From Hellea sp. (lineage in GTDB: Bacteria; Pseudomonadota; Alphaproteobacteria; Caulobacterales; Maricaulaceae), in NCBI GenBank assembly GCA_020629545.1, contig JAHDDC010000006.1:44782-80148 (forward strand): a stretch of DNA of 35,367 nt, written 5' to 3'. Positions 10,307 to 35,367 of this stretch are shown piece by piece (positions within the stretch are counted from its first letter, which is position 1; each line of letters starts with the position of its first letter). The notes below the pieces were generated by a model, which was not told the origin of the DNA, ran no database searches, and was given only the letters and a program-made list of their open reading frames with translations. A program made the translations under genes and the position numbers.

Positions 10307-10318
10307 AGAGAAGAAAAC

Positions 10319-18148: not shown

Positions 18149-19026
18149 GAGAGCCATCCCGCTTCTTTTTGTTTTTCAAACGCGGTTATAGCATTTCTCA
18201 TTAAAACTGCGACGGTGACAGGCCCGACGCCGCCCGGTACTGGTGTTACCCAGCTTGCGATCTCCTTGACGGCCTCTGTGTCGACGTCTCCGATTATGGC
18301 CGTGCTGCCATCTTTTTCAGTGATCTGATTAATGCCAATGTCAATGACCGCGGCGCCTGGCTTGACCATGTCCGCGCCAATCAAATGCGGTTTGCCCACG
18401 GCGACGATCAATACATCAGCGCGTCTGGAGTGCGCTGCGACTGATCGGGTCATGTGATGACAAACTGTAACTGTTGCACCTTCAGCCATTAGTAAAAATG
18501 CTGCGGGTTTTCCGACGATTGCAGAATGCCCGACCATGACGACTTCCAAGCCTTTTATATCCATGCCTGTTGCTTTGAGCATTTCGACGGATGCGGCCGC
18601 TGTGCAGGGGACAAGCGCGAGGTCATCATAAACAATATTGCCTATCGATGCCGGATTCATTCCTTCAACATCTTTGAGAGGGTGGATGGCTGATTGCAAT
18701 GATCGAACATTAATGTGCTCTGGTGTTGGGCGTTGTAAAATTATTCCCAGTACATCATTGTCATCATTCATAGCGACGATGCGTGACTTGGCTTCATTTT
18801 GAGAGGTGTCAGCGGGCCAAATTTGAGGGTCAAACGGAATGCCAAGTTTTTGCGCCGTGCGCGCTTGATTGCGAATATAAACGTCTATGTCATCCTGCTG
18901 CCCAATTGAGATGGAAACCAACCGTCCGAGTTCGTGAGTTTTCTTCGCCGTTTTTATGCGGGATCTAACATCTGCAAGTATTCGCTTTCGCACGGCTTTG
19001 CCTGTCAACATTCTCGGATCGGACAT
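18145..19026 (-). CDS. folD: FolD-family methylene-THF dehydrogenase, altered cyclohydrolase site
   Basis: 293 aa, a full-length FolD. The NAD(P)-binding domain is typical (VMVGHSAIVGKPAAFLLM, ADVLIVAVGKPHLIG, WVTPVPGGVGPVTVAVLM). The THF-binding domain keeps Tyr50 and Gln98 (GIILQRPTP) but has Gln54 where nearly all FolD proteins have the catalytic Lys (Y-x3-K), and Glu121 where the motif KDVDG has Asp (here KDVEG). The Lys is needed for the cyclohydrolase step, and a Lys-to-Gln change in the human enzyme kept dehydrogenase but lost cyclohydrolase activity, as I recall. So this may be a dehydrogenase-only version. Role: oxidises methylene-THF from Sox, DMGDH-type and MetF reactions. Divergent from fdsG. 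Confidence 0.9.
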   Translation of the reverse strand: MSDPRMLTGKAVRKRILADVRSRIKTAKKTHELGRLVSISIGQQDDIDVYIRNQARTAQKLGIPFDPQIWPADTSQNEAKSRIVAMNDDNDVLGIILQRPTPEHINVRSLQSAIHPLKDVEGMNPASIGNIVYDDLALVPCTAAASVEMLKATGMDIKGLEVVMVGHSAIVGKPAAFLLMAEGATVTVCHHMTRSVAAHSRRADVLIVAVGKPHLIGADMVKPGAAVIDIGINQITEKDGSTAIIGDVDTEAVKEIASWVTPVPGGVGPVTVAVLMRNAITAFEKQKEAGWLS

Positions 19027-19211: not shown

Positions 19212-19688
19212 ATGGTTACATTATTAAACACGATCGAAGATCCAAAGGCTCGCAATATTTGTCGTGATCATGGTGATCGACCTGATGAGCTCTTGGAAAT
19301 TCTCCATAAAGTACAAGAGGCCAAGGGGTTTTTATCCGATGGTGCGTTAAGAACAATTGCGGATGCACTCAATATATCGCGAGCCGAGATCCATGGCGTG
19401 GTCAGTTTTTACCATGATTACAAACGCAAAAAAGGCGCGAAACAAACGATAAAAATTTGTCGGGCCGAAGCTTGCCAAGCGGTAGGCGCCAACGCCCTAA
19501 TTTCGAATGCAGAAGAGGTTTTCAGAACTAAGCTGGACGAAGACAGCATTACTGTCGCATTAGAATCAACTTACTGCCTTGGAAACTGCGCTCTTGGCCC
19601 TGCGGTGATGGTTGACAACGAGTTGTACGGGCGAGTCGACATTGAACGTTTGAAGGCAATTTCCAATGCACATAAGGAAAAATCATGA
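19212..19688 (+). CDS. fdsG: NAD-dependent formate dehydrogenase gamma subunit
   Basis: 158 aa, NuoE-like thioredoxin-fold subunit. One 2Fe-2S cluster is bound by Cys83, Cys88, Cys122 and Cys126 (C-x4-C and C-x3-C). The N-terminal helical part has FYHDYKRKKGAKQTIKIC. It is first in the order G-B-A-C of soluble, oxygen-tolerant Fds formate dehydrogenases, rather than part of complex I, because FdhD follows and no other nuo genes are present. The ATG has GGGGA seven bases upstream, and its stop overlaps the fdsB start (ATGA). Confidence 0.93.
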   Translation: MVTLLNTIEDPKARNICRDHGDRPDELLEILHKVQEAKGFLSDGALRTIADALNISRAEIHGVVSFYHDYKRKKGAKQTIKICRAEACQAVGANALISNAEEVFRTKLDEDSITVALESTYCLGNCALGPAVMVDNELYGRVDIERLKAISNAHKEKS

Positions 19689-21223
19689 GCGTTACGGTCT
19701 ATATTCCTTGCGACGCGGCAGCGCTATCTATGGGTGCAAACGATGTCGCTATCGCATTGGCTGAAAAGTCTAAAGATGTGAAAATTATACGCAACGGATC
19801 CCGCGGCATGCTGTGGCTCGAGCCTCTGGTCGAAGTTGAAACTGAGAAAGGTCGTATCGCTTATGGACCTGTGACGGCCTCGGACATTGATAGTTTGATT
19901 GAAGCAGACTTTTTATCTGGCGGCGATCATGATCTGTGTCATGGACCCACAGAAGACATACCATATTTTGCCAATCAAGAACGCCTGACCTTCGCGCGCG
20001 TCGGCATTATTGATCCGCTAGATCTCGATGCATACGCAAAACATGGCGGCTTAATCGGTTTGGAAAAGTCTCTTAAAATGGAACCAGCGAAAATCGTTGA
20101 AACCGTTTTGGACTCCGGGCTTCGAGGCCGAGGCGGCGCAGGGTTTCCAACGGGTATCAAATGGAAAACAGCCCTGGCACAGCCTGACGGCCAAAAATAT
20201 ATGTGCGCCAATGCCGATGAAGGCGATAGCGGGACATTTGCGGACCGTATGTTGATGGAAGGTGATCCGTTCACTTTGATCGAAGGCATGATCATTGGGG
20301 GGCGCGCAATTGGGGCTGATACTGGATATATCTATATACGTTCGGAATATCCACACGCGATTAGAACCATGCGTAAAGCCATTAAAGTCATGGAAGATGC
20401 TGGTTGGTTGGGCGAAGATATTAAAGGCTCAGGTAGCTCTTTTAATCTCCATATTCGTGTTGGCGCTGGGGCTTATATTTGCGGCGAAGAAAGCTCTATG
20501 CTGGAAAGCATAGAAGGCAAAAGAGGTCAGGTTAAAGTCAAGCCGCCAATCCCTGCGATTAGCGGATTATTTGGCAAGCCGACGATTGTGAATAATGTCC
20601 TTACGCTCGGAACTATTCCCTATATCATGTCAGAAGGCGCAGAGGCCTATGCAATCTTTGGTCAGGGCCGCTCAAAAGGAACACAGCCTTATCAACTGGC
20701 TGGTGATATAGCGCGGGGCGGATTAGTGGAAAAAGCTTTCGGTGTTACGCTTGGGCAATTGGTTAATGATTTTGGCGGAGGAACACATTCTGGACGCCCT
20801 GTCAAAGCTATACAAACCGGGGGGCCGCTCGGCGGTTATGTAACGCCAGAACACTATGATGTTGATATGGATTATGAACATATGGCTGAAGCTGGGTCAA
20901 TGATTGGACATGGTGGTCTGGTCGTTTACAATGACACAACTGATATGACACAGATGGCCAGATACGCGATGGAGTTTTGCGAGATCGAATCTTGCGGAAA
21001 GTGTACGCCGTGCCGAATCGGTGCCGTTCGCGGAAAAGAAACAATTGATAAGATCGTGGCAGGCGAAAATGTCGAAGATAATCTCGAAATTCTTGATGAT
21101 CTATGCGCGCTGATGGAGGATGCATCATTGTGCGCAATGGGAGGGTTAACACCGCTTCCGGTTAAAACGGCAATTAAACATTTTCCAGAAGAATTTATGG
21201 GCCGAAAAGAAGCGGCGGAGTAG
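19685..21223 (+). CDS. fdsB: NAD-dependent formate dehydrogenase beta subunit
   Basis: 512 aa, NuoF-like flavin subunit. It binds FMN and NAD+ through GLRGRGGAGFPTGIKW, CANADEGDSGTFADR and GAGAYICGEESSM, and holds a 4Fe-4S cluster at Cys437, Cys440, Cys443 and Cys483 (ESCGKCTPCRIG). The first 120 residues form an extra N-terminal domain, as in Fds beta subunits. It passes electrons from the formate-oxidising alpha subunit to NAD+. AAGGA lies before the ATG; five bases separate it from fdsA (stop at 21221-21223). Confidence 0.94.
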   Translation: MSVTVYIPCDAAALSMGANDVAIALAEKSKDVKIIRNGSRGMLWLEPLVEVETEKGRIAYGPVTASDIDSLIEADFLSGGDHDLCHGPTEDIPYFANQERLTFARVGIIDPLDLDAYAKHGGLIGLEKSLKMEPAKIVETVLDSGLRGRGGAGFPTGIKWKTALAQPDGQKYMCANADEGDSGTFADRMLMEGDPFTLIEGMIIGGRAIGADTGYIYIRSEYPHAIRTMRKAIKVMEDAGWLGEDIKGSGSSFNLHIRVGAGAYICGEESSMLESIEGKRGQVKVKPPIPAISGLFGKPTIVNNVLTLGTIPYIMSEGAEAYAIFGQGRSKGTQPYQLAGDIARGGLVEKAFGVTLGQLVNDFGGGTHSGRPVKAIQTGGPLGGYVTPEHYDVDMDYEHMAEAGSMIGHGGLVVYNDTTDMTQMARYAMEFCEIESCGKCTPCRIGAVRGKETIDKIVAGENVEDNLEILDDLCALMEDASLCAMGGLTPLPVKTAIKHFPEEFMGRKEAAE

Positions 21224-21227
21224 GACT

Positions 21228-24059
21228 ATGGCAATATTAAAAGAAATAGATTACGGAACACCGGCGGTTAAATCTGACAAGTCCGTTAGCCTCGAAATTG
21301 ATGGCCATTCGATCAGTGTTCCCGAAGGAACATCGGTTATGCGGGCCGCAATGGAAGCCGGTATTCCAATCCCTAAGCTATGCGCAACCGATAGCGTCAA
21401 TGCTTTCGGCTCTTGCCGATTATGCGTTTGTAAGGTCGAGGGTAAACGCGGCACTCCCGCTTCGTGTACTACAATTGCAGAAGAGGGCTTGAAGGTCACA
21501 ACGCAAGATAGTCAGCTTGCTAAAATTCGCAAAGGCGTGATGGAGCTTTATATTTCTGACCACCCGCTCGACTGTTTAACATGTTCGGATAACGGCGATT
21601 GTGAGTTACAAGATATGGCCGGTGCAGTGGGGCTTCGCGAAGTGCGCTATGGCTATGATGGCGAAAATCACAACTATGCGCCCACTGATAATAGTAACCC
21701 ATATTTTAGCTTTGACGAAAGTAAGTGCATCGTTTGCTCTCGTTGCGTCAGAGCGTGTGATGAAGTTCAAGGAACACTAGCGCTTACTGTTGAAGGCCGT
21801 GGGTTTAAGTCGAAAATTTCGCCTTCAATGGGCGAGAGTTTTATGGAATCAGAATGTGTTTCCTGCGGGGCTTGTGTCCAGGCCTGCCCAACAGCAACAT
21901 TGCAAGAGAAGTCTGTTATTGAGCATGGTGTACCTGATCGTACCGTTTTGACGACTTGCGCCTATTGCGGCGTTGGATGCTCGTTCAAAGCGGAGCTCAA
22001 AGGTGATCAAGTTATTCGCATGGTGCCTTATAAAGACGGTAAAGCCAATCATGGACATTCATGTGTAAAAGGTCGTTTTGCGTTTGGATACGCGACCCAC
22101 AAAGACCGCATAACAGAGCCTATGATCCGTGAAAACATCACCGATCCTTGGAAAAAGGTTAGCTGGGAAGAAGCGTATACGTTTGCCGCAGACAAGTTAA
22201 AGGCCACACAGAAGAAATATGGTATCAAGTCAGTGGGCGGGATTACATCCAGCCGTTGTACCAATGAAGAAGTCTGGTTAGTTCAGCGCCTCATTCGTCA
22301 AGGCTTTAAAAACAATAACGTTGATACATGTGCAAGGGTTTGTCACTCGCCAACCGGCTATGGTCTTAAGCAGACCTTTGGGGAGTCTGCGGGAACGCAG
22401 AATTTTGATTCTGTTATGTCGGCTGATTGCATCATGATCATCGGTTCAAACCCGTCTGATGCTCACCCCGTTTTTGCGTCACAAATGAAGCGGCGATTAC
22501 GTCAGGGGGCGAAGCTCATAATTGCGGACCCACGCGCGATTGAGCTTGTAAAGACGCCCCATATTAAGGCCGACTATCACCTACCACTTCGTCCCGGAAC
22601 TAACGTTGCGCTTATTAATGCGTTCGCTTATGTTGCGGTTAAAGAGGGGCTTATTGACGAAGAATTTGTCAAAGAGCGGACGGAAAACTTTGATGAGTGG
22701 AAAAATACCATCTCAGACGAAGCCAATTCTCCGGAAAGTGTCGCGAAGATTACGGGCGTGCCAGCAGAGGACATTATTGCGGCCGCTAAAATGTTTGCGA
22801 GCCATAACAATTCAGCAATTTACTATGGGCTTGGCGTAACTGAACACTCACAAGGTTCAACAATGGTTATGGGCATGGCAAATCTGGCTATGGCCACTGG
22901 GAATATTGGCCGTCCAGGCGTTGGTGTTAATCCAATGCGGGGCCAAAACAATGTTCAGGGGTCCTGTGATATGGGGTCTTTCCCGCATGAATTTTCGGGC
23001 TATCGTCCAGTTTCTGATGATACTGTTCGTGGCTTGTTCGAAACCCAGTGGAATGCGGAACTTGATGGTGTGCCGGGATATCGCATTCCGAACATGTTCG
23101 ATGAAGCGGTTAACGGCACATATAAAGGAATGTATATTCAAGGTGAGGATGTGGCGCAATCTGACCCTAACATTCATCATGTTGAAGCTGCGCTAAAGGC
23201 GCTAGATATTCTGATTGTTCAGGATCTTTTCCTGAATGAAACGGCTCGTTTTGCACATGTATTTTTACCGGGAACTTCATTCCTGGAAAAGGATGGTACA
23301 TTCATCAATGCAGAGCGCAGGATTAATCGCGTTAGGCCCGTCATGAAATCCGCCACAGGGAAGCAAGAATGGGAAGTTACGCAGGATTTAGGCCGAGCGC
23401 TTGGTTTTGATATGGGTTTTAACTCCGCCTCAGAAATCATGGATGAAATAGCGAAGTTAACGCCAACTTTCACCAATGTGACCTTCGATCTTCTTGATGA
23501 AAAAGGAAGCTTGCAATGGCCGGTCAATGATGACCACCCTGACGGAGCGGAAGTCATGCATGTGGGTGAATTTGTACGTGGCCTTGGAAAATTTGTGCCA
23601 ACTGAATATGTTCCAACGACCGAAAAGACTAATCGGAAATTCCCGTTATTACTCACGACAGGTCGCATCTTGTCTCAATATAATGTTGGCGCTCAAACTC
23701 GCCGAACCCATAACTCAGATTGGCATGAGGAAGACGTTCTCGAAATTCATCCTTCAGACGCTGAGGCACAAGGTGTCCAAGATGGTCAGTGGGTATCGCT
23801 CAAGTCGCGTAAAGGTGAAATTACGCTTCGCGCTCGTCATTCAAGCCGCATGCAGCCCGGTGTTGTCTATACCACTTTCCATCACCCTGATACCGGCGCT
23901 AATGTTGTGACAACTGAAAATGTCGATTGGGCGACTTCTTGTCCGGAGTATAAAGTGACTGCGGTTGCCATTGCGCCCGCTAATCACAAATCCGATTGGC
24001 AGAAACGTCACGAGGCTGAGAGCGACGGGTATCGCCAGATATTCGAACCGGCTGAGTAA
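21228..24059 (+). CDS. fdsA: NAD-dependent formate dehydrogenase alpha subunit (Mo)
   Basis: 943 aa catalytic subunit that oxidises formate to CO2 at molybdenum bis-MGD. In order: 2Fe-2S ferredoxin domain (Cys52, 63, 66, 80), His-ligated 4Fe-4S (His112, Cys116, 119, 125), two 4Fe-4S ferredoxin motifs (Cys167/170/173/177 and Cys210/213/216/220), the 4Fe-4S of the catalytic domain (Cys244/247/251/279) and the Mo ligand Cys372 in ARVCHSPTG. Because Mo is held by Cys and not selenocysteine, no UGA recoding is needed. The C-terminal dinucleotide-binding domain runs from about 820. This matches FdsA of aerobic bacteria in length and cluster set. It is the end of the C1 oxidation route in the window. 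Confidence 0.95.
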   Translation: MAILKEIDYGTPAVKSDKSVSLEIDGHSISVPEGTSVMRAAMEAGIPIPKLCATDSVNAFGSCRLCVCKVEGKRGTPASCTTIAEEGLKVTTQDSQLAKIRKGVMELYISDHPLDCLTCSDNGDCELQDMAGAVGLREVRYGYDGENHNYAPTDNSNPYFSFDESKCIVCSRCVRACDEVQGTLALTVEGRGFKSKISPSMGESFMESECVSCGACVQACPTATLQEKSVIEHGVPDRTVLTTCAYCGVGCSFKAELKGDQVIRMVPYKDGKANHGHSCVKGRFAFGYATHKDRITEPMIRENITDPWKKVSWEEAYTFAADKLKATQKKYGIKSVGGITSSRCTNEEVWLVQRLIRQGFKNNNVDTCARVCHSPTGYGLKQTFGESAGTQNFDSVMSADCIMIIGSNPSDAHPVFASQMKRRLRQGAKLIIADPRAIELVKTPHIKADYHLPLRPGTNVALINAFAYVAVKEGLIDEEFVKERTENFDEWKNTISDEANSPESVAKITGVPAEDIIAAAKMFASHNNSAIYYGLGVTEHSQGSTMVMGMANLAMATGNIGRPGVGVNPMRGQNNVQGSCDMGSFPHEFSGYRPVSDDTVRGLFETQWNAELDGVPGYRIPNMFDEAVNGTYKGMYIQGEDVAQSDPNIHHVEAALKALDILIVQDLFLNETARFAHVFLPGTSFLEKDGTFINAERRINRVRPVMKSATGKQEWEVTQDLGRALGFDMGFNSASEIMDEIAKLTPTFTNVTFDLLDEKGSLQWPVNDDHPDGAEVMHVGEFVRGLGKFVPTEYVPTTEKTNRKFPLLLTTGRILSQYNVGAQTRRTHNSDWHEEDVLEIHPSDAEAQGVQDGQWVSLKSRKGEITLRARHSSRMQPGVVYTTFHHPDTGANVVTTENVDWATSCPEYKVTAVAIAPANHKSDWQKRHEAESDGYRQIFEPAE

Positions 24060-24060
24060 A

Positions 24061-24855
24061 ATGGAAGTTACTTTTCACGGAAGCGCTCAACCTGCCTCCC
24101 GTGAATTCGATCTCTCGGGGGAGAGAACAAGGGCTCGCTGGCATATTCCAACGGAAATGCCGGTGGCCTTTGTTTTTAATCGCCGCAACTATTCCGTCAT
24201 GATGGCAACGCCTGATGATTTGGTGGACTTTGCCATAGGTTTTTCTTTAACTGAAAACGTCATAAAAAGCCCAAAGGACATCATCAGTTTAGACGTCATC
24301 ATGAGTGAGCAGGGCGCAGATCTTCGTTTCAAAATTTCAGATGATTGTTTAGAGCGATTGGACGTAACTCAGAGACGACGAAATATGGTAGGCAGCGCTA
24401 GCTGCGGTCTTTGCGGGCTTGAGAGTGCAGATGTTTTATTTCGATCTTTGCCAAAGGTATCAGAGGTTCCGGTTAATCCGGATATTGCTATTGTTACCAA
24501 AGCTATTGCCTCGCTGAGAAATCACCAGCCTCTTAATCAATTGACACGAAGCGTACATGCAGCTGCATGGGTCGATAAAACAGGTGCAATTAAATTTGCC
24601 CGAGAAGACGTTGGGCGGCACAATGCCCTCGACAAGCTCTTGGGCGCTATCGCCCAGTCTGATGTCGATATTGGCGATGGATTTGTTTTGATGTCTAGCC
24701 GATGTTCTTACGAAATTATTGAAAAGGCAGCATCTCAAGGCGTAAAAATGTTAGTTTCCGTCTCAGCGCCGACCGCTTTTGCCTTGCGCAAAGCCCAAGA
24801 GGTGAATATGGCGATTTTCGCCAAATCAGGCGAAGGCGCAGTTCGGCTGCTTTAA
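24061..24855 (+). CDS. fdhD: formate dehydrogenase sulfurtransferase
   Basis: 264 aa from ATG 24061, one base after the fdsA stop; an open frame back to 23965 lies in fdsA. FdhD (called FdsC in fds operons) moves sulfur from a cysteine desulfurase to bis-MGD to activate formate dehydrogenase. The hallmark C-x2-C is seen in SASCGLCG (about residues 116-123), with later family segments REDVGRHNALDKLLG and LMSSRCSYEIIEKAA. It is coupled to fdsA, which fits its maturation role. The next gene is a transporter 12 bases away; the small FdsD subunit that usually follows is not seen. Confidence 0.93.
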   Translation: MEVTFHGSAQPASREFDLSGERTRARWHIPTEMPVAFVFNRRNYSVMMATPDDLVDFAIGFSLTENVIKSPKDIISLDVIMSEQGADLRFKISDDCLERLDVTQRRRNMVGSASCGLCGLESADVLFRSLPKVSEVPVNPDIAIVTKAIASLRNHQPLNQLTRSVHAAAWVDKTGAIKFAREDVGRHNALDKLLGAIAQSDVDIGDGFVLMSSRCSYEIIEKAASQGVKMLVSVSAPTAFALRKAQEVNMAIFAKSGEGAVRLL

Positions 24856-26119: not shown

Positions 26120-27085
26120 TTACTTGCTTTCGCGTTCTTGTTTAGGCGTAACGCCGTATTTCGATCTGAAAGTTTTAGAGAAGTATGACGTAGAGCTAAA
26201 GCCCGTGGCATATGCGATTTCCGATAGATGCATCGTCGTTTGGCGAAGTAATATTCGGGCGCGTTCAAGGCGAAGATATTGATAATATCGAGCGGGTGTC
26301 TCTTCGAGTTGGGCTTGAAACAAGCGTTCTAATTGCCGTGTCGAAAGCCCAATTGATTTGGCCAGTTTGGCGATAGAGATCGGCGACTCGATATAAGCCT
26401 CCATATACCCAATAGCTGCCAAGAGCTTTGGATGCGTTATTCCAGTACGTTTTTCAGCGGCCATACGCTGGAGATCTTCCGGTTCTCGGATAGAAGCATA
26501 TAAGAGCTGATCCGCGACCTGCATGCTTAAATCTCGGCCATAATCCTGTTTGATTGAATAGATCATCATATCCAGAGCCGCCATGCCCCCCGAGCAGGTA
26601 AAGCGATTGCGGTCAGCCTCAAATAGAGTCGCAGTAATAATAAGTTTGGGGTAACGCTCGGCCAGGCTCTCAATGTTCTCCCAGTGTATAGTGCAGCGGT
26701 AACCATCCAGAAGACCAGCTTCGGCCAAGGTGATTGTGCCGGTACACATACTACCCAAAGGCGTGCCATTTCGCGCAAGGCTTCGTAAGACATTAGAGGT
26801 CTTGCTATTGAGGTGGTCGTAAGCCCTTACGCCTGAACATACAAAAAGGATGTCGCATTTTGTTTTATCGGTGAGCATGCCATCGGGGTTGAACTCAACG
26901 CCGTTGCTGGCCTTGACAGGTTTTCCGTCGATTGAATACAAATCCCAGCTAAATATGGTTCTTCGTGCAACCCGATTAGCGGAACGAAGCGGTTCGATGG
27001 CTGAGGTAAACGCGATCAAAGAAAACTGCGGTGTCAGTAAAAACCCCACATGTTGTGTGTCTTTTATAGGCTGACGACCGAACAT
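26120..27085 (-). CDS. GATase1-type AraC-family regulator (GlxA/GbdR class)
   Basis: 321 aa from ATG 27085. The open frame extends to 27328, but that part overlaps the DUF1289 gene and is rejected. The N-terminal DJ-1/PfpI-like domain (about 10-190) has VGFLLTPQFSLIAFTSAIEPLRSANR, FVCSGVRA and MCTGTITLAEAGLLDGYRCTIHW. The C-terminal AraC domain runs from about 220 to the end, with two helix-turn-helix units (SIAKLAKSIGLSTRQLERLF and LSEIAYATGFSSTSYFSKTFR). This class includes GbdR (glycine betaine, dimethylglycine), CdhR (carnitine) and SouR (sarcosine). It is last in the dddP operon. Three ATGTCGT elements in the dddP-fhs intergenic region resemble half-sites bound by this class, so it probably controls dddP and fhs. 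Ligand unproven. Confidence 0.88.
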   Translation of the reverse strand: MFGRQPIKDTQHVGFLLTPQFSLIAFTSAIEPLRSANRVARRTIFSWDLYSIDGKPVKASNGVEFNPDGMLTDKTKCDILFVCSGVRAYDHLNSKTSNVLRSLARNGTPLGSMCTGTITLAEAGLLDGYRCTIHWENIESLAERYPKLIITATLFEADRNRFTCSGGMAALDMMIYSIKQDYGRDLSMQVADQLLYASIREPEDLQRMAAEKRTGITHPKLLAAIGYMEAYIESPISIAKLAKSIGLSTRQLERLFQAQLEETPARYYQYLRLERARILLRQTTMHLSEIAYATGFSSTSYFSKTFRSKYGVTPKQERESK

Positions 27086-27089
27086 GTAT

Positions 27090-27356
27090 TTAGTCTGTTT
27101 TGGCCGCGCGTCTACGTTTGTTGACGCGTCTGCGTTTTCGGCGTTCTTCGAGTTTTGCCCGCAGTGGCGGCATACGGCCTGGAAGATCCGCCAATATTTG
27201 GTCTCGTTCTTCCTTGGTTTTTTCAGTCCAATAGGCGATCTCATCCGGTGTACGGCCACACCCAAAACACATATTGCTTTCTTTATCCATTGAACAAATG
27301 AGCTGGCACGGACTATCCGTGGGCTCAAACTCTGAGAGATCTACGTCATGGGCCAT
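27090..27356 (-). CDS. DUF1289 domain-containing small protein
   Basis: 88 aa. The family signature is visible: SPCQLICSMDKESNMCFGCGRTPDEIAYW, with four cysteines (C-x3-C, then C-x2-C) that may bind metal, followed by an Arg/Lys-rich C-terminal tail (LEERRKRRRVNKRRRAA). Its ATG directly abuts the dddP stop (TAA ATG), and its own stop lies four bases before the regulator start. Function unknown; DUF1289 proteins are common and often neighbours of unrelated genes. The gene is certain by motif and fit. Confidence 0.88.
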   Translation of the reverse strand: MAHDVDLSEFEPTDSPCQLICSMDKESNMCFGCGRTPDEIAYWTEKTKEERDQILADLPGRMPPLRAKLEERRKRRRVNKRRRAAKTD

Positions 27357-28649
27357 TTATTTTCCTAACAATCGGCTATCATATGGGTAAGTTGTTAGAT
27401 TTTCAAAGCCAGTTTCTGTGACTAAAACTTGGTTTTCAAGTTTGACGCCTTCGCGCGCCCCCTGTTTGCCAGCAAAGACTTCAACACAAAGAACCATTCC
27501 CGGCTCAAGATGATAATCAAAAGCACCTTCGATGTAACTATCCGGATAATATATACTTGGAAATTCATCGCATAGACCAACCCCATGCATTTTCACGCAA
27601 TATTTATTAGCCTGATATTCATCCGGTAAAACGTGCCCTTTATAAGTCAGGTCTCGCATGGAAACGCCAGGAGCGAGTAGCGTCATATTGGTCTCAACAT
27701 GCTCGTGAGCAATCCGGTAGGTCTCTACTTGTTCGGCGGTAGCATCGGCATCACCAACCAACCAAGTGCGAGACGTATCGACGCAAATGCCAAACAACCC
27801 GATCATATCAGTATCAAAGCCCATGATATCGCCAGTATTCATTATCCGTCCGCTCGCCTCACTCATCCAGGGATTAGTTCTGGGGCCAGATGCCAAAATC
27901 CGAGTCTCGATCCACTCTCCACCCTGGGCTATATTCTCTTTGTGTAGGACAGACCAGAGTTCAACCTCTGCCATGCCGGGCTTCATTGCTTTTTCCATTT
28001 CTGCCATTGCCATTTCGCAGCCAGCAACAGCGCAGCGCATCGCCAAAATTTCGTCAGGAGATTTTATAACTCGCGCATGTTCCATAACGGTTTGTGCATC
28101 AATGATATTGAGATCCGTCGCGAAAAAGGCTTTTGCGATGGTGGTATCCATTCTATCTATCCCGATTGGACCTGACAGCTTGTGTATTCTCAATACGTCC
28201 TGAACTTCGTTGCAAAAGGATCGAGCCTGTTTTCCCACAGTGTCGCCAAACTCGAAATAGAAAGACCCCGCAACCTGACGGACTTCGTTTATACGCGATA
28301 AGTGTTCGGTCATGTGCCGACAATTTGTAAAGTCCCAAAGAATCATATGTCCGGTGACGGTTACAATCGCAGCCCGAGCTAAGTTGTGAGCTGTCCACAG
28401 CTGCATATTCGAGCTATCCGTAGCATAACGTATGTTGAGGGGATCAAATAATAATAAGGCGTCAACTTCACGCTTTTCCATTTCAGAGAGAATGCGTTGA
28501 CGTCGATAAGCTCGAATAGATTCGAGGTTCGGAAGCTCAAGCCCCATTGCCGTCAATTGACTAGTCATTGCCGGTGTAACAAAAACTTCATTCGGATCAT
28601 AATGATGAATGTGTTCACCCGAACGCGCCAGTGGCGTGATTTTTGTCAT
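27357..28649 (-). CDS. dddP: DMSP lyase, M24-peptidase-like
   Basis: 430 aa from ATG 28649 (GGAG six bases upstream; an in-frame ATG at 28661 has no ribosome-binding site). It belongs to the M24/creatinase fold and reads as DddP, which splits DMSP to dimethylsulfide and acrylate. Characteristic segments: FDPLNIRYATDSSNMQLW (68-85), EWIETRILASGPRTNPW (245-261), GICVDTSRTW, MHGVGLCDE. The metal and catalytic residues of DddP align at a constant offset: Asp279, Asp281, Asp291, His355, Glu390, Glu405 and the catalytic Asp361 (295, 297, 307, 371, 406, 421 and 377 in the Ruegeria enzyme as I recall). Ordinary Xaa-Pro peptidases lack the extended DddP segments. It heads an operon with DUF1289 and an AraC-type regulator, divergent from fhs. 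Confidence 0.88.
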   Translation of the reverse strand: MTKITPLARSGEHIHHYDPNEVFVTPAMTSQLTAMGLELPNLESIRAYRRQRILSEMEKREVDALLLFDPLNIRYATDSSNMQLWTAHNLARAAIVTVTGHMILWDFTNCRHMTEHLSRINEVRQVAGSFYFEFGDTVGKQARSFCNEVQDVLRIHKLSGPIGIDRMDTTIAKAFFATDLNIIDAQTVMEHARVIKSPDEILAMRCAVAGCEMAMAEMEKAMKPGMAEVELWSVLHKENIAQGGEWIETRILASGPRTNPWMSEASGRIMNTGDIMGFDTDMIGLFGICVDTSRTWLVGDADATAEQVETYRIAHEHVETNMTLLAPGVSMRDLTYKGHVLPDEYQANKYCVKMHGVGLCDEFPSIYYPDSYIEGAFDYHLEPGMVLCVEVFAGKQGAREGVKLENQVLVTETGFENLTTYPYDSRLLGK

Positions 28650-28720
28650 TTCTGGCTCCATATACGTTATTTGAACCTGAACGATATCTCTGCATAAAAC
28701 TTCAAACGCGTCTCTAAAGC

Positions 28721-28899: not shown

Positions 28900-30600
28900 A
28901 TGATTGAACAAAACTTACCCGCTCCCGGAGCGCCCGATATTGAAATAGCACGCGCTGCGAAGATGACGCCGATATTGCCGCTGGCAGAAAAAACCCTGGG
29001 GATTCCAGCTGAAGCTCTTGTGCCTTATGGTCACTTCAAGGCTAAGTTGTCTTTGGAGTATATCGACGAGATTAAGGGGCGCCCGAATGGGAAGCTAGTT
29101 TTGGTCACTGCGGTGACACCGACACCCGCGGGTGAAGGTAAAACGACTACAAGCGTTGGTTTGAATGACGGACTAAACCGCATAGGTGTTAAATCCATGG
29201 TTTGTCTGCGAGAGCCATCCTTAGGCCCTTGTTTCGGAATGAAAGGCGGAGCCGCGGGAGGTGGCCGTGCTCAAGTCCTCCCGATGGAAGATATCAATCT
29301 TCATTTTAATGGTGACTTTCACGCTATCACATCAGCTCATTCACTAATATCGGCTATGCTCGATAACCATATGCAGTGGGGTAATGAGCTTGATATCGAT
29401 CCGCGCCGGATTACATGGCGCCGTGTGGTCGACATGAATGACCGGGTTCTTCGGAATATCGTTATTGGGATGGGTGGTCCTACGCAAGGTGTTGTCCGTC
29501 AGGATGGTTTTGATATTACCGTAGCGTCTGAGATTATGGCGATTTTCTGTTTGGCGACGGACCTGAAAGATCTGCAAAAGCGGATTGGCGATATTATACT
29601 AGGTCAGACCCACGCAAAGAAGCCTGTTACAGTTAGAGATATTGGTGCTGACGGCGCTGTGACGGTTCTGCTCAAAGATGCATTCCAGCCGAATTTGGTT
29701 CAATCTATTGAACATAATTTAGCATTCATACATGGCGGACCATTTGCGAATATCGCTCACGGCTGTAATTCCGTGGTTGCGACTCAAACCGCTTTGAAAA
29801 TGGCTGACGTTGTTGTCACTGAGGCCGGGTTTGGTGCGGACCTAGGCGCCGAGAAGTTTTTGGACATCAAGTGTCGGCAGTCTGGTTTGAGGCCTGATGC
29901 TGTTGTTCTGGTTGCGACTGTGCGGGCGATGAAGATGCAGGGCGGTGTTGCCAAAGGCGATCTGAGTGAACCGAACGCGGCGGCAGTTGCCGAGGGCGGC
30001 GTTAACTTACAACGTCACATTCAAAATATGAAAAAGTTCGGTGTTCAGCCTGTCGTGGCATTGAATCATTTTGTTCACGATACGGCGGATGAAGTTGCTG
30101 AAATTCAAAAGATTTGCGACTCAGAAGGCGTTCAGATGTGTTTGTCAAAGCATTGGGCAGAAGGCGGCGCCGGCGCCGAGGATCTGGCTAAGGCGGTTAA
30201 AGGCATACTTGATGGTCCAAAGCCTGATGTCACGTTAATGTATTCTGACGACATGAAGCTCAAGGCAAAGGTAGAAGCTGTCGCCAAAGAGATCTACCGT
30301 GCAGATGGTGTCACTTTTAGCGGCGAAGCGTCTAGCGCAATTCGAAAAATCGAAAAGATGGGTTTTGGTCATCTCCCAATTTGCATCGCCAAGACGCAAT
30401 CTAGTTTTTCAACGGATGCGAAGAAACTTGGTGCAACCAGTAATCATACGGTTGAGGTCCGGGAAGCGACTCTCAATGCAGGTGCAGGATTCGTAGTTAT
30501 GGTATGCGGCACGATCATGCGTATGCCTGGGCTGCCTCGTCATCCGGCAGCATTGGATATTGGGCTGGATGAGGATGGACAAATAGTAGGATTGGCTTAG
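28900..30600 (+). CDS. fhs: formate-tetrahydrofolate ligase
   Basis: 566 aa, normal for Fhs. It has the nucleotide-binding loop [16 protein letters not shown] (73-88) and the conserved [19 protein letters not shown] (104-122), which holds substrate. The reaction formate + THF + ATP to 10-formyl-THF is reversible; in a demethylating aerobe it can run toward formate and make ATP, feeding the Fds formate dehydrogenase. AGGGGA lies before ATG 28900. It is first of a same-strand run through 35367, 50 bases before the corrinoid protein gene. The upstream region carries the tandem ATGTCGT elements shared with dddP. Confidence 0.96.
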
Positions 30601-30650
30601 GGAATTCATGCTAGCGTATCGTGAGTCGAGCCTAATCGTGAGGAAATGAA

Positions 30651-31340
30651 ATGAGTGATCAAGACGAAGAAATCATCCTGAAAGATTTGGATGACAATGA
30701 GTTAGTCCAGCAAATGCAGGACGACCTATATGATGGTATGATCGAAGAAGTTACCGAGGGAACACAAATCCTTTTAGACCGTGGATGGGATGCCAATATG
30801 GTTCTCAATGATGCGCTAGTTGAAGGCATGCGCATCGTGGGGATTGATTTCCGTGACGGAATTTTATTCGTTCCCGAGGTTCTGCAATCCGCTAATGCTA
30901 TGAAAGGCGGGATGGGGCTATTGCGTCCGATTCTGGCCAATAGTGACAATAAATCCAGTACCGGAACCTATGTTATTGGAACCGTTAAAGGCGATATCCA
31001 TGATATTGGAAAAAACCTTGTTGGTATGATGCTTGAAGGTGCAGGTTTTGAGGTCCATGACCTTGGAATCAATACTTCGGTAGATGAGTATCTCGAGGCA
31101 ATCGATAAATATCAGCCCGATATTTTAGGAATGTCAGCTCTGCTCACGACAACTATGCCGTATATGGGAGTTGTTATCGAAGAGCTCGATAAGCGTAACA
31201 TCCTTAAGGAGCTTCCAGTCATGGTTGGCGGTGCGCCGCTCAATCAGGAATTCGCAGATGCGATCAACGCTCACACATATGGACGTGACGCGGCAATGAG
31301 TTCGGAGCTCGCAAAAGCGATCGTTGGTAAAAACCGGTAA
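30651..31340 (+). CDS. corrinoid (B12-binding) methyl-carrier protein
   Basis: 229 aa with the two-part layout of MtgC/MttC/MtbC-type corrinoid proteins: a helical cap domain (about 15-95) and a Rossmann-type cobalamin domain (105-229). The lower-ligand motif D115-I-H117-D-I-G120 is intact, followed by SALLTTTMPYMG (about 164-175) and VMVGGAPLNQEFAD. It would carry a methyl group on Co between a substrate-specific methyltransferase and the pterin methyltransferase at 33469. No MttB-family substrate methyltransferase is present in the window. AGGA six bases before the ATG. Acidic N-terminal tail (SDQDEEIILKDLDDNE). Confidence 0.93.
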   Translation: MSDQDEEIILKDLDDNELVQQMQDDLYDGMIEEVTEGTQILLDRGWDANMVLNDALVEGMRIVGIDFRDGILFVPEVLQSANAMKGGMGLLRPILANSDNKSSTGTYVIGTVKGDIHDIGKNLVGMMLEGAGFEVHDLGINTSVDEYLEAIDKYQPDILGMSALLTTTMPYMGVVIEELDKRNILKELPVMVGGAPLNQEFADAINAHTYGRDAAMSSELAKAIVGKNR

Positions 31341-31345
31341 ATGAA

Positions 31346-31975
31346 ATGCAAGGCCCTCAGGATCAAGACCAGCCAAAAACGCTGATACTGGCCTGCGGGG
31401 CATTGGCAAAAGAGATTTTGGTCCTCACTGAGCAATTGGGGTCAGCTGCTGACCTCCAATGTTTGCCTGCAGGTTACCACAATTTTCCGGAAAAGATTGT
31501 TCCCGCGCTTCGCGCCGAACTTGATAGCCGACAAGACGATTATGACAATGTTCTAATCGGGTATGGCGATTGCGGGACGGGAGGCGGTCTTGATCGTTTG
31601 TTAAAGGACTATCCAAAAGCGTCGAGATTGCCAGGCGCCCATTGCTATGCCTTTTATGCTGGGCTTGATGTCTTCGACGCAATGATGGAAGATGAACTTG
31701 GGACGTTTTTCTTGACTGATTATCTTGTCCGTCATTTCAATACATTGATCGTCAAGGGGTTTGGAATGGATCGGTTTCCCAATCTGAAGGACATGTATTT
31801 CGAACACTACAAAAAGCTTGTATATCTGGTTCAGGATCCCTCACAAAACCTGTCCGAGAAAGCGCTAGAAGCTGCCAAATATCTGGGCCTCGAATATTCT
31901 GAGAAAGTAGTGGGGTATGGTTTGATGGCGGATCACATCGTGAAACATTCAATTGCCGAGGCTAACCATGTATAA
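31346..31975 (+). CDS. DUF1638 domain-containing protein
   Basis: 209 aa. The family is recognised from LILACGALAKEI (13-24), IGYGDCGTGGGLDRLL (71-86) and PGAHCYAFYAGLDVF (96-110). Conserved-looking Cys17, Cys76, Cys100 and His45 could bind a metal or cobalamin, but no function is established to my knowledge. DUF1638 genes are repeatedly seen beside corrinoid proteins and their methyltransferases, which is the arrangement here: 5 bases after the corrinoid gene, 8-base overlap with metV. A role as accessory or chaperone for the corrinoid protein is a guess. No ribosome-binding site is obvious, which suits coupling to the upstream gene. Confidence 0.85.
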   Translation: MQGPQDQDQPKTLILACGALAKEILVLTEQLGSAADLQCLPAGYHNFPEKIVPALRAELDSRQDDYDNVLIGYGDCGTGGGLDRLLKDYPKASRLPGAHCYAFYAGLDVFDAMMEDELGTFFLTDYLVRHFNTLIVKGFGMDRFPNLKDMYFEHYKKLVYLVQDPSQNLSEKALEAAKYLGLEYSEKVVGYGLMADHIVKHSIAEANHV

Positions 31976-32435
31976 AATTCGCCTCTTTGCCATCAGACAT
32001 TCCAGGTTCTTCGAAGGGCTCTATAACGCCGTGAATCCCATAATTGTCAGTTCTTTGAAGGGAATTGATAAAGTTTTCGGAAAATCACTCGACGGACCAA
32101 TTACAGCTGCAGAAGCTGGCTTAAAAGGGTTGTTGTTTGATTGCAAAATGTGCGGAAATTGCGCTTTGTCAAAAACCGGTATGAGTTGCCCTATGAATTG
32201 TCCAAAAACAATTCGCAATGGCCCTTGCGGTGGCGTTCGAGCGGACGGTACGTGCGAAGTTAAGCCAGAAATGAAATGTGTATGGGTGCAGGCCTGGGAT
32301 GGTGCGTCCCGCATGAAGGCTGGTGAAGATATCAAGAATATCGAGTTTGCGGTTGATAATCGTGACAAAGGTAAATCGACTTGGCTGCGTATAGCTCGAG
32401 GTGAAATTGCGGAGAAGGTCAATGATCGACATTGA
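31968..32435 (+). CDS. metV: MetV-type methylene-THF reductase cysteine-rich subunit
   Basis: 155 aa from ATG 31968. The core is a cysteine-rich block: Cys59, 62, 65, 74, 78, 87, 96 and 104 (CKMCGNCALSKTGMSC, then PMNCPKTIRNGPCGG), matching the MTHFR C-terminal domain that in acetogens is the separate MetV subunit of MetVF. These cysteines bind Zn and/or an iron-sulfur cluster in that family. MetV passes electrons to or from the flavin of MetF and determines the electron partner. It overlaps metF by 14 bases, so the two are surely made together. In proteobacteria MetF usually works alone, so the presence of MetV is notable. N-terminal 45 residues are helical and hydrophobic-poor, without a signal peptide. 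Confidence 0.88.
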   Translation: MYKIRLFAIRHSRFFEGLYNAVNPIIVSSLKGIDKVFGKSLDGPITAAEAGLKGLLFDCKMCGNCALSKTGMSCPMNCPKTIRNGPCGGVRADGTCEVKPEMKCVWVQAWDGASRMKAGEDIKNIEFAVDNRDKGKSTWLRIARGEIAEKVNDRH

Positions 32436-33459
32436 TGCGATGCAAAACCCCGAAAAAGTAGGGACTAATCCTGGAGATCCTCTTCCGCGTCTGGAGGGAC
32501 ACGTTTCTCACGGTCGTTTTGAACAAGTTCTGCGCGCGGGCCATTTTGCAGTCACAACTGAAATTGCGCCGCCTGACTCAGCTGACCCAACAGAGGTCCT
32601 GAGGCGAGCGTCTTTGTTTGACGGCTATGTCGATGCGATTAACGCAACTGACGGTTCTGGTGCGCATTGCCATATGTCGAGCCTGGCCGTTTGCGCCATT
32701 CTAACGAGAGCTGGGTACTCGCCGATTTTACAGGTTTCTTGTCGGGATCGAAATCGCATCTCAATTCAAGGCGACACACTTGGCGCCGCCGCGCTAGGGG
32801 TTTGTAATGTCTTGTGTTTGTCCGGGGATGACGTAGGGGCAGGTGATCACCCTGAGGCAAAGCCAGTCTTCGATTTGGATTCGATTTCATTAGCAAAAAC
32901 GATACGAACGATGCGTGACGATGGTCAGTTTTTATCCGGGCGAAAGCTCGATTTAGCACCAAGAATGATGATAGGGTCTTCGATTAATCCTTTTGTTCCG
33001 CCTATCGCCAATCGAGCGGATCAACTTGCGAAGAAAATTGCCTCCGGAGCTGAGTTTATTCAGTCGCAATACTGTTTCGATATGCCTATTCTACGAGATT
33101 TTATGGCCAGGGCTCGAGATCTGGGCCTAACGGAAAAGGCTTATATCATAATCGGAGTGGGAATTTTGCCTTCGGCGAAAACTGCCAGATGGATGAGAGA
33201 TAATGTTCCCGGTGTCCACATTCCGGATGAAGTTATAAAGCGGCAGGAGCAAGCTGATAAGCCCAAGCTAGAGGGCCGAAAAATTTGTTCAGAAATCATG
33301 CAGCAAATTAAAGAGATCGACGGTGTCGCAGGGGTGCATGTTATGGCTTATCGACAGGAAAAATGGGTCGGTGATGTCGTTAAGCGATCAGGCGTCTTAG
33401 ACGGACGTCAACCTTGGGCGCCTGAAAAATCATTCGCAGATATACAAGCTATTACATAG
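32422..33459 (+). CDS. metF: methylenetetrahydrofolate reductase
   Basis: 345 aa from ATG 32422 (the frame opens at 32401, but GGAGAAGG precedes 32422). MetF TIM-barrel fold with FAD: VTTEIAPPDSADP (43-55) contains the catalytic Glu, VDAINATDGSGA is the usual second strand motif, and VSCRDRNRISIQGDTLGAAALGV and GAEFIQSQYCFD follow. Converts methylene-THF and methyl-THF. Paired with MetV it resembles the MetVF complex rather than the NADH-dependent E. coli MetF. In this window it would oxidise methyl-THF made by DmdA and by the corrinoid methyltransferase, a direction that needs an acceptor more positive than NAD; the acceptor is not evident. Nine bases before the next gene. Confidence 0.93.
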   Translation: MIDIDAMQNPEKVGTNPGDPLPRLEGHVSHGRFEQVLRAGHFAVTTEIAPPDSADPTEVLRRASLFDGYVDAINATDGSGAHCHMSSLAVCAILTRAGYSPILQVSCRDRNRISIQGDTLGAAALGVCNVLCLSGDDVGAGDHPEAKPVFDLDSISLAKTIRTMRDDGQFLSGRKLDLAPRMMIGSSINPFVPPIANRADQLAKKIASGAEFIQSQYCFDMPILRDFMARARDLGLTEKAYIIIGVGILPSAKTARWMRDNVPGVHIPDEVIKRQEQADKPKLEGRKICSEIMQQIKEIDGVAGVHVMAYRQEKWVGDVVKRSGVLDGRQPWAPEKSFADIQAIT

Positions 33460-33468
33460 GAAATCATA

Positions 33469-34380
33469 ATGGCCAGAACCGTATTAACATCCGCTTCCAA
33501 AGAAGTTGTCATTGGCTTTGATCAGCCCTTTGCCATGATCGGCGAAAGGATCAATCCAACGGGACGGAAGCTTTTCTCTAAAGAGCTTAAGGAAAAGAAT
33601 TATTGGCGCGTAAAAAAAGAAGCGCTTTCACAAGTGGAGGCCGGCGCGCAAATTTTGGATGTCAATGTGGGTGTCCCTCTCGCTGATGAGCCTGCCATTA
33701 TGGCCGAGGTCATTCCTCTTATTCAAAGTCTGACCGATGTCCCGTTATGTATTGATAGTTCTATTATTGAAGCGCTTGAATCTGGCTTGTCCGTGTATAA
33801 AGGTCGTCCATTGGTCAATTCTACAACGGCTGAAGAAGAAGTCATGGAACGTGTTCTGCCGCTTGTGGCGAAATATGATTGTGCAGTCGTTGCGATCTCT
33901 AATGATGACACGGGGATATCTGAAGACCCAGATGTTAGATTCGAAGTCGCTAAACGTATCGTAAATCGAGCATCAGATTACGGTATTAAAGCAGAAGATG
34001 TTGTGGTGGACCCTCTGGTAATGCCTATCGGTGCAGTGGGGACTGCGGGTACGGATTGCTTTAAGCTAATCGGAAGACTTAGAAATGAGTTGGGCGTTAA
34101 TACCACTTGCGGGGCGTCTAACATTGCGTTTGGATTGCCCAACCGTCACGCGATCAATAATGCATTTCTACCAATGCTAGCTTGTGCGGGCATGACCTCA
34201 GCTATCGTCAATCCACTTCACGAAGGCCTAGTTCCAGCTGTTAGAGCCGCAGATGTTTTGAATAATAATGATGCCAATTGTGCTAATTGGATAAAACACT
34301 ATCGCCCAGCACCAGCAGCGGGAGATGAAGGCGGGCGCGGCGCACGGGGTAATCGTAGACGCAAACGGTCTGCTAGTTAG
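33469..34380 (+). CDS. methyltetrahydrofolate:corrinoid methyltransferase (MtgA/AcsE type)
   Basis: 303 aa, pterin-binding TIM barrel of the DHPS-like group. GERINPTG (26-33), AGAQILDVNVG (58-68), CIDSSIIEALE, VNSTTAEE, VVVDPLVMPIG and TTCGASNIAFGLPNR are the expected strands and Asn/Asp contacts. It moves a methyl group between the corrinoid protein and THF. The length is somewhat more than AcsE/MtgA (about 260-270) because of a basic tail of about 20 residues (EGGRGARGNRRRKRSAS) that could contact a partner or nucleic acid. It sits in one operon with the corrinoid protein, MetVF and a reactivase, and overlaps the next gene (TAG/GTG, one base). Confidence 0.93.
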   Translation: MARTVLTSASKEVVIGFDQPFAMIGERINPTGRKLFSKELKEKNYWRVKKEALSQVEAGAQILDVNVGVPLADEPAIMAEVIPLIQSLTDVPLCIDSSIIEALESGLSVYKGRPLVNSTTAEEEVMERVLPLVAKYDCAVVAISNDDTGISEDPDVRFEVAKRIVNRASDYGIKAEDVVVDPLVMPIGAVGTAGTDCFKLIGRLRNELGVNTTCGASNIAFGLPNRHAINNAFLPMLACAGMTSAIVNPLHEGLVPAVRAADVLNNNDANCANWIKHYRPAPAAGDEGGRGARGNRRRKRSAS

Positions 34381-34787
34381 TGGGCGAGGTATATACAGGG
34401 TCATGCCTTTGCGGTTCGGTCACCTTTGAGGCGGACGGACTCTCCGACATATGGTACTGTCATTGTAAACAATGCCAAAAGCTGACGGGGTTGTATATTT
34501 CCGCGGCTGGCGTCGAGAAAGACAAGTTGACGATTTCCGGAACTGTAAATTGGCTCCCAATTTCTGGGAAATCACAATCTGGACGTTGTGCCGATTGTGG
34601 AAGTTATATGTTTTGGGACATGCATGGTAGCCCTTCGATGTCCGTGTTAACGGGTTGCGTTGACGACACCTCGGGGCTTACGGTTAGAGGTCATATTTAC
34701 GTTGAGGAAAAGCCGTCACATTACGAAATAACAGATGGCCTCCCGCAATATAAAGGATATCCGGAAGAGGGTACACGCAGCACTTAA
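34380..34787 (+). CDS. GFA-family (glutathione-dependent formaldehyde-activating-like) protein
   Basis: 135 aa. The zinc pattern of the GFA/Mss4-like fold is complete: Cys9-L-Cys11, Cys27-H-Cys29-x2-Cys32 and Cys70-x2-Cys73. GTG start overlapping the preceding TAG as TAGTG; no ATG is available at this end. The family was named for S-hydroxymethylglutathione formation, though most members have unknown substrates. Between a pterin methyltransferase and a reactivase it might deal with formaldehyde from the Rieske oxygenase or serve another thiol role; not proven. One base overlap with the next gene (TAATG). Confidence 0.88.
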   Translation: MGEVYTGSCLCGSVTFEADGLSDIWYCHCKQCQKLTGLYISAAGVEKDKLTISGTVNWLPISGKSQSGRCADCGSYMFWDMHGSPSMSVLTGCVDDTSGLTVRGHIYVEEKPSHYEITDGLPQYKGYPEEGTRST

Positions 34788-35367
34788 TGACTACGCATAC
34801 TGTCATATTCACGCCGTCCGGAATTAGGGCGGAAGCTCAAGATGGTCAAACTGTCTATGATGTTGCGCTGGATGCTGGCGTGGATATCCAGTCGATTTGC
34901 GGCGGTAAAGGATTATGCAAGCGATGCCAATGTGAGATAGACACAGGGAAACATGCTAAGTTTAACCTTGATGTCAAAGCTGATCATGTTGGCAAGCTGA
35001 CACCTACTGAGAAAAAGGCTATTCACGATGGAGAGCTTTCTGAAACCAGAAGACTAGCTTGCCGGGCCAAGATCCGCGGAGCTCTTGTCGTTGATGTCCC
35101 GAGCGATGCCCGTGAAGCTGAAAGCTCTATTCAAAAGAAAAGCACGCCGATCGATGTGCCTGTCAATCCCGCCATCACGCTTCATATGGTTCAATTACCT
35201 GTCCCGACGCTTGAGGATAACCCGAGTGACGGGGAGGCACTTGTCGCTGCCTTGAAACAGCATCACCAGTTAGATGTTCGCCCATCACATAGAATGCTGA
35301 TCAAGCTTCAGGCTATTCTTAAGGAACACGAACGCACCGTCATCTCGGTTGTCAGAAACAACGATAC
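34787..35367 (+). CDS. RamA/RACo-like corrinoid reactivase, 5' part (cut by window edge)
   Basis: 193 complete codons are visible from ATG 34787, the frame staying open to the last base. Residues 1-100 form a 2Fe-2S ferredoxin domain: Cys38-x5-Cys44-x2-Cys47 and Cys92, with GGKGLCKRC. This N-terminus followed by a linker and a central region (TLHMVQLPVPTLEDNPSDGEALVAAL) is the layout of ASKHA-domain DUF4445 proteins (RACo, RamA, RamQ-like) that use ATP to reduce inactive Co(II) corrinoid. The ASKHA part itself is beyond the window, so the assignment rests on the ferredoxin domain, the linker and the operon with a corrinoid protein. It would reactivate the protein at 30651-31340. Confidence 0.82.
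   Translation, partial: MTTHTVIFTPSGIRAEAQDGQTVYDVALDAGVDIQSICGGKGLCKRCQCEIDTGKHAKFNLDVKADHVGKLTPTEKKAIHDGELSETRRLACRAKIRGALVVDVPSDAREAESSIQKKSTPIDVPVNPAITLHMVQLPVPTLEDNPSDGEALVAALKQHHQLDVRPSHRMLIKLQAILKEHERTVISVVRNND

Follow-up and report, generated by a model that had tools for sequence, protein, structure and literature searches.

The window analysed here, a 35,367-nucleotide stretch of Hellea sp. (contig C135 of genome G000, positions 44782-80148, in an assembly of 3.59 Mb and 155 contigs), carries an operon that very probably encodes an aerobic corrinoid methyltransferase system of the MtgBCD type, coupled to the oxidation of methyl groups bound to tetrahydrofolate (THF). The system is already published, and the operon is a compact example of it rather than a new system.

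The operon lies on the forward strand (Table 1). It begins with fhs and continues through genes for a corrinoid protein (mtgC), a DUF1638 protein, metV, metF, a pterin methyltransferase (mtgD) and a GFA family protein into the start of a corrinoid reactivase gene (ramA). No intergenic space exceeds 50 nucleotides (nt); from fhs to the reactivase there follow in order a gap of 50 nt, a gap of 5, overlaps of 8 and 14, a gap of 9 and two overlaps of 1. A preliminary description of this DNA, made from the letters alone, had reported such a closely spaced run on one strand, and the open reading frames, family scores and spacing bear it out. It had also proposed a comparison of synteny; the gene order proves to be kept in relatives (see below), and the arrangement is therefore not due to chance.

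The window ends at a run of 100 N that the assembly has within the reactivase gene. When the two halves of the gene were aligned separately to the reactivases of three relatives, G078, G014 and G163, they matched in order, so that we regard them as one gene and the join as sound. Between the aligned flanks the relatives have 93, 95 and 93 residues, respectively, where the Hellea protein has 33 X; the flank distance comes to about 90 residues once the few unaligned residues of the latter are counted, and the 100 N are probably a placeholder length. In the extended locus (L003:568-2343) the gene has 591 codons, covering Fer2, RACo linker, middle and C-terminal domains. A further gene follows 18 nt past ramA. 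This encodes a member of the MttB superfamily (L003:2362-3894, equivalent to C135:81362-82894; PF06253, 721 bits) in 510 codons without an in-frame stop and hence without pyrrolysine, and is itself followed by an O-acetylhomoserine sulfhydrylase-like gene. The preliminary description was thus right that the window holds no MttB, the gene being 1.2 kb beyond the window's end at 80148, and its suggestion that the operon might continue to one was confirmed on extending the contig rightward. As judged from sequence, the operon therefore has the gene content of an MtgBCD demethylase: an MttB without pyrrolysine, a stand-alone corrinoid protein, an MtgD-type methyltransferase, and RamA together with DUF1638.

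The mtgC product is a stand-alone corrinoid protein with the motifs DxHxxG, SxL and GG, which we take to define a cobalamin site; D115, H117, G120, S162, L164, G193 and G194 are invariant in all ten aligned rows, and cobalamin binding is predicted. C17, H45, C76, H99 and C100 are invariant in a 47-row alignment of DUF1638, which suggests a metal site. A structure search with a confident model of DUF1638 gave no clear relative.

Relatives were sought with the corrinoid protein as query in 200 genomes of the same order, 198 of which gave matches. Among the matches listed, a stand-alone MtgC homologue of 65-100% identity occurs in at least nine genomes, its own included, at ten loci; the remaining ones show 30-41% identity in frames of at least 550 residues and were taken to be MetH. 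In a separate search of genome contigs, the closest named relatives among the matches listed are metagenome-assembled genomes of Hellea (92% and 90%), Novosphingobium (83% and 82%) and Robiginitomaculum (79%). The full order fhs-mtgC-DUF1638-metV-metF-mtgD-GFA-ramA-mttB is found in G078 and G014 and, without ramA, in G153. In G163 the genes from fhs to ramA are present without GFA and are followed by a BCCT transporter (438 bits against a family cut-off of 408; 508 with a betaine-specific model, under its cut-off of 650), MttB being encoded on the other strand some 4 kb beyond. Three genomes, G108, G168 and G024, have only mtgC-DUF1638-mtgD-ramA from the module, and G151 has mtgC alone in its stretch.

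Wider counts were made at named loci, for which the best 80 of at least 593 confirmed relatives were kept, many of these loci being incomplete. DUF1638 is found near MtgC in 72 of the 80, MtgD in 69, RamA in 66, MttB in 53, MetV in 32 and MetF in 31; MtgE-like (15), Fhs (11) and GFA (8) neighbours are rarer. For the 44 loci whose sequence extends leftward by 8 kb or more and rightward by 9 kb or more from the MtgC start, the numbers are RamA 42, MtgD 41, DUF1638 41, MttB 34, MetV 21 and MetF 21. A protein of about 100 residues was also seen near DUF1638, MetV and MtgD (L061-L133), its cluster being represented at 60 of the 80 named loci but not in any of the 11 other sequences that were clustered with them. 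The one member tested (L112) matches PF13769, ‘Virulence_fact’, a family without a match in the Hellea genome; the operon has no copy of this protein.

The mechanism that we favour takes the roles of MtgC, MtgD, RamA and DUF1638 from published work on relatives. MtgB, the MttB-superfamily protein encoded just past the window, would demethylate a quaternary amine, glycine betaine being the likeliest, and load the methyl group onto the cob(I)alamin of MtgC, and MtgD would pass it from MtgC to THF, while the RamA-type reactivase, aided by DUF1638, would rescue oxidised cobalamin. MetVF would then oxidise methyl-THF to methylene-THF, from which FolD, Fhs and formate dehydrogenase would lead to CO2. 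The leftover dimethylglycine would pass to the products of the dimethylglycine dehydrogenase (DMGDH)-like and sarcosine oxidase genes upstream. All that is needed to take methyl-THF to CO2, namely MetVF, FolD, Fhs and a formate dehydrogenase, is encoded inside 16 kb. The preliminary description had likewise envisaged corrinoid-based methyl oxidation alongside sarcosine oxidase, Rieske and methylated-osmolyte genes; the genes support this, whereas the substrate and the direction of flow, like the regulation, we infer. Most likely the operon is catabolic and oxidative rather than acetogenic, because MetH and a second MetF are encoded in the genome and acetyl-CoA synthase gave no match there.

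This second MetF-family gene, elsewhere in the genome, scores 292 bits against PF02219 compared with 92 for the operon MetF, and is perhaps the biosynthetic one. MetV, in contrast, is present in a single copy. It has eight conserved cysteines, seven of them invariant and one present in at least 90% of 25 aligned rows, and in 29 of the 32 MetV loci MetF lies on the same strand within 300 nt. Type II MetVF is described in PMC8760232 as lacking RnfC2 or Hdr subunits, as having iron-sulfur clusters in MetV and as having no conserved NADH site. With cysteines of iron-sulfur type in a MetV that adjoins MetF, the operon pair appears to fit this type, its cluster content being a prediction. The same source takes the methylene-/methyl-THF couple as -200 mV, so that oxidation of methyl-THF would need an acceptor above that value. 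A helix of MetV, residues 12-37, exceeds its shuffles in amphipathicity in all 25 rows, which two other helices do in 1 of 25 and 0 of 24 rows; seven stretches, picked after a weak model, were tried, and the ones that stood out all lie within 12-37. Soluble proteins often have amphipathic helices too, and docking of this one to a membrane is only an idea.

Glycine betaine is the likeliest substrate, given that the window also encodes a DMGDH-like protein and sarcosine oxidase, and given the similarities of the MttB. Among solved structures the operon MttB scores highest with 4yyc (675 bits), followed by 2qne (431), 9yce (430) and, far below, the trimethylamine methyltransferase 7xcl (102). The first is labelled ‘putative trimethylamine methyltransferase’, without a tested function in its listing. 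Both 2qne, named MtgB in PMC9842639, and 9yce are glycine betaine methyltransferases, which makes this the nearest structure named for a tested function. With the operon MttB as query, 50 of 54 MttB copies near MtgC at the named loci were more identical to it than to a second MttB of the genome. The latter, on contig C5, is 50% identical to the operon MttB and likewise has 4yyc as its closest structure (566 bits). It belongs to a second betaine-type locus, L004 (C5:30001-50000), together with a BHMT/MtgE-like gene (NF005718, 475 bits; cut-off 338), an HD-domain protein and a TauD-type dioxygenase whose nearest models, TmpA and gamma-butyrobetaine dioxygenase, give scores below their cut-offs. 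Two DMGDH-like proteins and a FolD-like gene, named by eye or on weak family scores, were also seen there.

Several points weigh against the reading of the operon as a glycine betaine demethylase linked to methyl oxidation. The corrinoid protein remains far under the cut-offs of the NCBIfam MtgC models (194 bits against 370 for NF047996, 155 against 310 for NF047995). Other enzymes of the MttB superfamily are reported to use carnitine, gamma-butyrobetaine, proline betaine or phosphocholine (PMC12478193), which makes glycine betaine a probable rather than a certain substrate. None of the operon genes was recognised as encoding an electron acceptor for MetVF, ETF and ferredoxin genes elsewhere not having been searched. 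CobN (PF02514) was not found in the genome, other cobalamin genes not having been searched, so that cobalamin would need to come from import or another synthesis route, and the operon would depend on a cofactor that the organism may have to import. Finally, the assembly is 91.6% complete with 7.5% contamination, and absences are therefore weak. Some of these points bear on the rather unlikely alternative that MttB demethylates a different compound – carnitine, gamma-butyrobetaine, choline, proline betaine, or a sulfonium such as dimethylsulfoniopropionate (DMSP) – and feeds the same downstream chain. The functional diversity of the superfamily (PMC12478193), the low MtgC model scores, the lack of a tested function for 4yyc and the presence of dmdA and dddP-like DMSP genes at the locus would all be accommodated by it; set against them are the adjoining genes for degradation of dimethylglycine and sarcosine and the identity of the nearest functionally named structure.

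Alternatives to the demethylase reading that concern the operon as a whole fare worse. The preliminary description allowed that the module may serve methyl-THF from DmdA. This is compatible with the data, DmdA being above its cut-off in the window and its methyl-THF able to enter the chain of MetVF, FolD, Fhs and formate dehydrogenase; two relatives, L045 and L055, also have dmdA-like genes close to the operon, and another, L046, has a dddP-like gene there. As the main role of the operon, with the corrinoid part secondary, it is improbable, since DmdA forms methyl-THF without any corrinoid protein and mtgC, mtgD, ramA, DUF1638 and MttB would be left unexplained. The operon was also first described as acetogen-like, and Fhs, FolD, MetVF, an AcsE-like methyltransferase and a RACo-like reactivase are indeed families of the acetogen methyl branch. 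A reductive branch of that type can nevertheless hardly be entertained: acetyl-CoA synthase (PF03598) had no match in this one genome, 92% complete, sarcosine oxidase and Rieske genes are present, and a homologous set has been published as oxidative. The closer comparison is with the same gene set published as aerobic MtgBCD or as split methionine synthase (PMC12478193, PMC5764234). That the Hellea operon itself works like the split, B12-dependent methionine synthase of Phaeobacter inhibens is in turn very unlikely. The corrinoid, pterin, RamA-like and DUF1638 families are shared with P. inhibens, and relatives G108 and G024 seem to employ the set in that way, but both MetH1 and MetH2 are present in the Hellea genome, and the operon has MttB, MetVF and Fhs and no homocysteine methyltransferase gene, so that neither the gene content of MtgCDE nor the absence of MetH is found. 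A side role in methionine synthesis is conceivable, since four further S-methyltransferase homologues were found elsewhere in the genome; a BHMT/MtgE-like gene is on C5. The second MetH part is apparently split over two contigs, C1 (at the end of L012) and C137:408-1232.

The distribution of MetH among relatives bears on how the catabolic and methionine-synthesising forms are related. Of nine genomes, all with an S-methyltransferase homologue, six have the MetH activation domain PF02965 (G000, G078, G163, G014, G168 and G151; not found in G153, G108 and G024) and six have MttB (G000, G078, G153, G163, G014 and G151; not found in G108, G168 and G024). Thus G000, G078, G163 and G014 combine MetH with a full or nearly full module. 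G108 and G024, in which the module is reduced and neither MttB nor the MetH activation domain was found, seem to fit the pattern of a split methionine synthase; G168, which has the reduced module together with MetH, is not explained in this way. In G153 (L046, L047), where no MetH activation domain was found, mtgC occurs twice, first in the MttB operon, which lacks ramA, and again directly beside a ramA.

In a tree of concatenated MtgC, DUF1638, MtgD and RamA from 21 taxa, the trio G108, G168 and G024 branches inside the demethylase clade, with support of 95 and 97 at two surrounding splits. Forcing the trio outside its six nearest sequences is rejected by the approximately unbiased (AU, p = 0.009) and Kishino-Hasegawa (KH, 0.015) tests but not by the Shimodaira-Hasegawa (SH) test (0.077); with nine sequences in place of six, AU (0.001), KH and SH all reject the constraint. 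These two fairer constraints replaced an earlier, stricter one that also excluded G153b and was rejected very strongly. The tree of MtgC only has weak support along the trio's part, and G153b is placed beside the trio there (72) but beside G153a in the concatenation (97); both G153a and G153b lack some of the genes, and a long branch leads to the trio. The placement of the trio suggests that the methionine-only form derived from the catabolic demethylase form. A fuller scenario is possible, though we advance it tentatively: the methionine form would have arisen by loss of MttB, MetVF and Fhs, the operon in the window would represent the older, catabolism-only state, and MetVF would be a dedicated methyl-THF dehydrogenase passing electrons to an acceptor that is possibly membrane-bound.

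The remaining genes of interest in the window are included in Table 1. The cluster of the GlxA-type regulator comprises 18 of 91 sequences, that of the window included. The alpha subunit of a Rieske oxygenase (17018-18148) is nearest to carnitine monooxygenase (106 bits) and GbcA, glycine betaine monooxygenase; with the NCBIfam GbcA model its 110 bits do not reach the cut-off of 670. A 560-residue open frame without a Pfam match (2970-4652) directly follows a membrane-dipeptidase family gene.

Table 1. Genes of the operon and of the surrounding locus, in window positions
Feature	Position	Strand	Evidence and remarks
fhs, formate-tetrahydrofolate ligase, first gene of operon	28900..30600	+	PF01268 (FTHFS) 855 bits; NF010030 876 bits, cut-off 652
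mtgC-type corrinoid protein	30651..31340	+	B12 cap and B12-binding domain, PF02607 + PF02310
DUF1638, cobalamin-reactivation partner according to published genetics	31346..31975	+	PF07796 95 bits
metV-type small Cys-rich subunit of methylene-THF reductase	31968..32435	+	PF12225 88 bits; ATG 31968 chosen, alternative TTG 31953
metF-type subunit of methylene-THF reductase	32422..33459	+	PF02219 92 bits; start 32422 or 32401 (alternative GTG)
mtgD-type methyl-THF:corrinoid protein methyltransferase, pterin-binding	33469..34380	+	PF00809 98 bits; NF005719 355 bits, cut-off 259
GFA family protein, facultative operon member	34380..34787	+	PF04828 66 bits
ramA/RACo-type corrinoid reactivase, first 193 codons	34787..35367	+	whole gene in extended locus
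Dimethylglycine dehydrogenase-like flavoprotein with folate-binding domain	6595..9042	+	named by domain make-up, DAO + FAO_M + GCV_T
Sarcosine oxidase: soxB 9056-10306, soxA 10632-13595, soxG about 13480-14157	9056..14157	+	TIGR01373 696 bits and TIGR01372 1459 bits, both above cut-off; PF04268 35 bits
dmdA, DMSP demethylase, another methyl-THF source	14515..15639	-	NF009133 565 bits, cut-off 410; PDB 3tfh 356 bits
folD, methylene-THF dehydrogenase/cyclohydrolase	18145..19026	-	PF02882 199 bits; PF00763 90 bits
NAD-type formate dehydrogenase, three subunits (19212-19688, 19685-21223, 21228-24059)	19212..24059	+	PF01257, PF01512, PF10589; TIGR01591 893 bits, cut-off 666
fdhD, formate dehydrogenase accessory protein	24055..24855	+	PF02634 201 bits; start uncertain
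GlxA-type AraC regulator, candidate regulator of the locus	26120..27328	-	DJ-1/PfpI + HTH domains; start uncertain
DddP-family DMSP lyase-like M24 protein, divergent from fhs	27357..28661	-	PDB 4rzy (presumably DddP) 435 bits; NF043017 508 bits, under cut-off 600

These results place the published aerobic corrinoid system for glycine betaine and methionine in a Hellea-related lineage, as one compact and probably catabolic operon, with DMSP genes and the genes of an entire pathway to CO2 alongside. Close relatives with demethylase-type, methionine-synthase-type and duplicated versions provide a natural experiment on the coupling or separation of the two functions, and the family also offers a test of which acceptor takes the electrons of MetVF in aerobes.

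The closest known system is MtgBCDE of Ruegeria pomeroyi DSS-3 (Mausz et al. 2025, PMC12478193), with which the operon shares an MttB-family MtgB, MtgC, MtgD, RamA, DUF1638 and an extra MetF (MetF2), as well as THF-linked oxidation and the dimethylglycine and sarcosine steps. Gene deletions there are reported to show that methionine synthesis as well as growth on glycine betaine requires MtgC and MtgD, and proteomics to show two MttB-family proteins, MetF2, RamA and DUF1638 raised on N-osmolytes. The same paper reports mtgC from SAR116, SAR324 and SUP05, often co-located with glycine betaine genes, and, in some groups, genomes carrying both metH and mtgBCD. The R. pomeroyi genes are described as not all together, whereas here a single operon led by fhs also contains metV and GFA, and one MtgC there serves both demethylation and methionine synthesis, whereas the Hellea genome keeps MetH. 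The split methionine synthase of P. inhibens (Price et al. 2018, PMC5764234) is likewise reported to comprise B12-binding, pterin-binding, RamA-like and DUF1638 proteins, but the Hellea operon has no homocysteine methyltransferase, and MttB, MetVF and Fhs instead. According to PMC11306105, the 20 metabolic genes that P. inhibens transcribes most strongly when grown with algae include an MttB-annotated gene and a THF ligase. Desulfitobacterium hafniense MtgABC resembles the operon in having an MttB-superfamily glycine betaine methyltransferase that feeds a corrinoid protein and THF; D. hafniense is, however, an anaerobe, and PMC12478193 sets the MtgC of roseobacters, a placement that covers theirs and not ours, apart from its corrinoid protein. 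The acetogen type II MetVF (PMC8760232) is similar in its MetF with an adjacent Cys-rich MetV and in the lack of an RnfC2 or HdrCBA/MvhD gene in the operon, and differs in that the host here is a presumed aerobe in which the reaction presumably runs in the oxidative direction. Two findings go beyond the main text of PMC12478193, namely the pairing of MetF with a Cys-rich MetV and the position of MttB-less relatives inside the demethylase clade.

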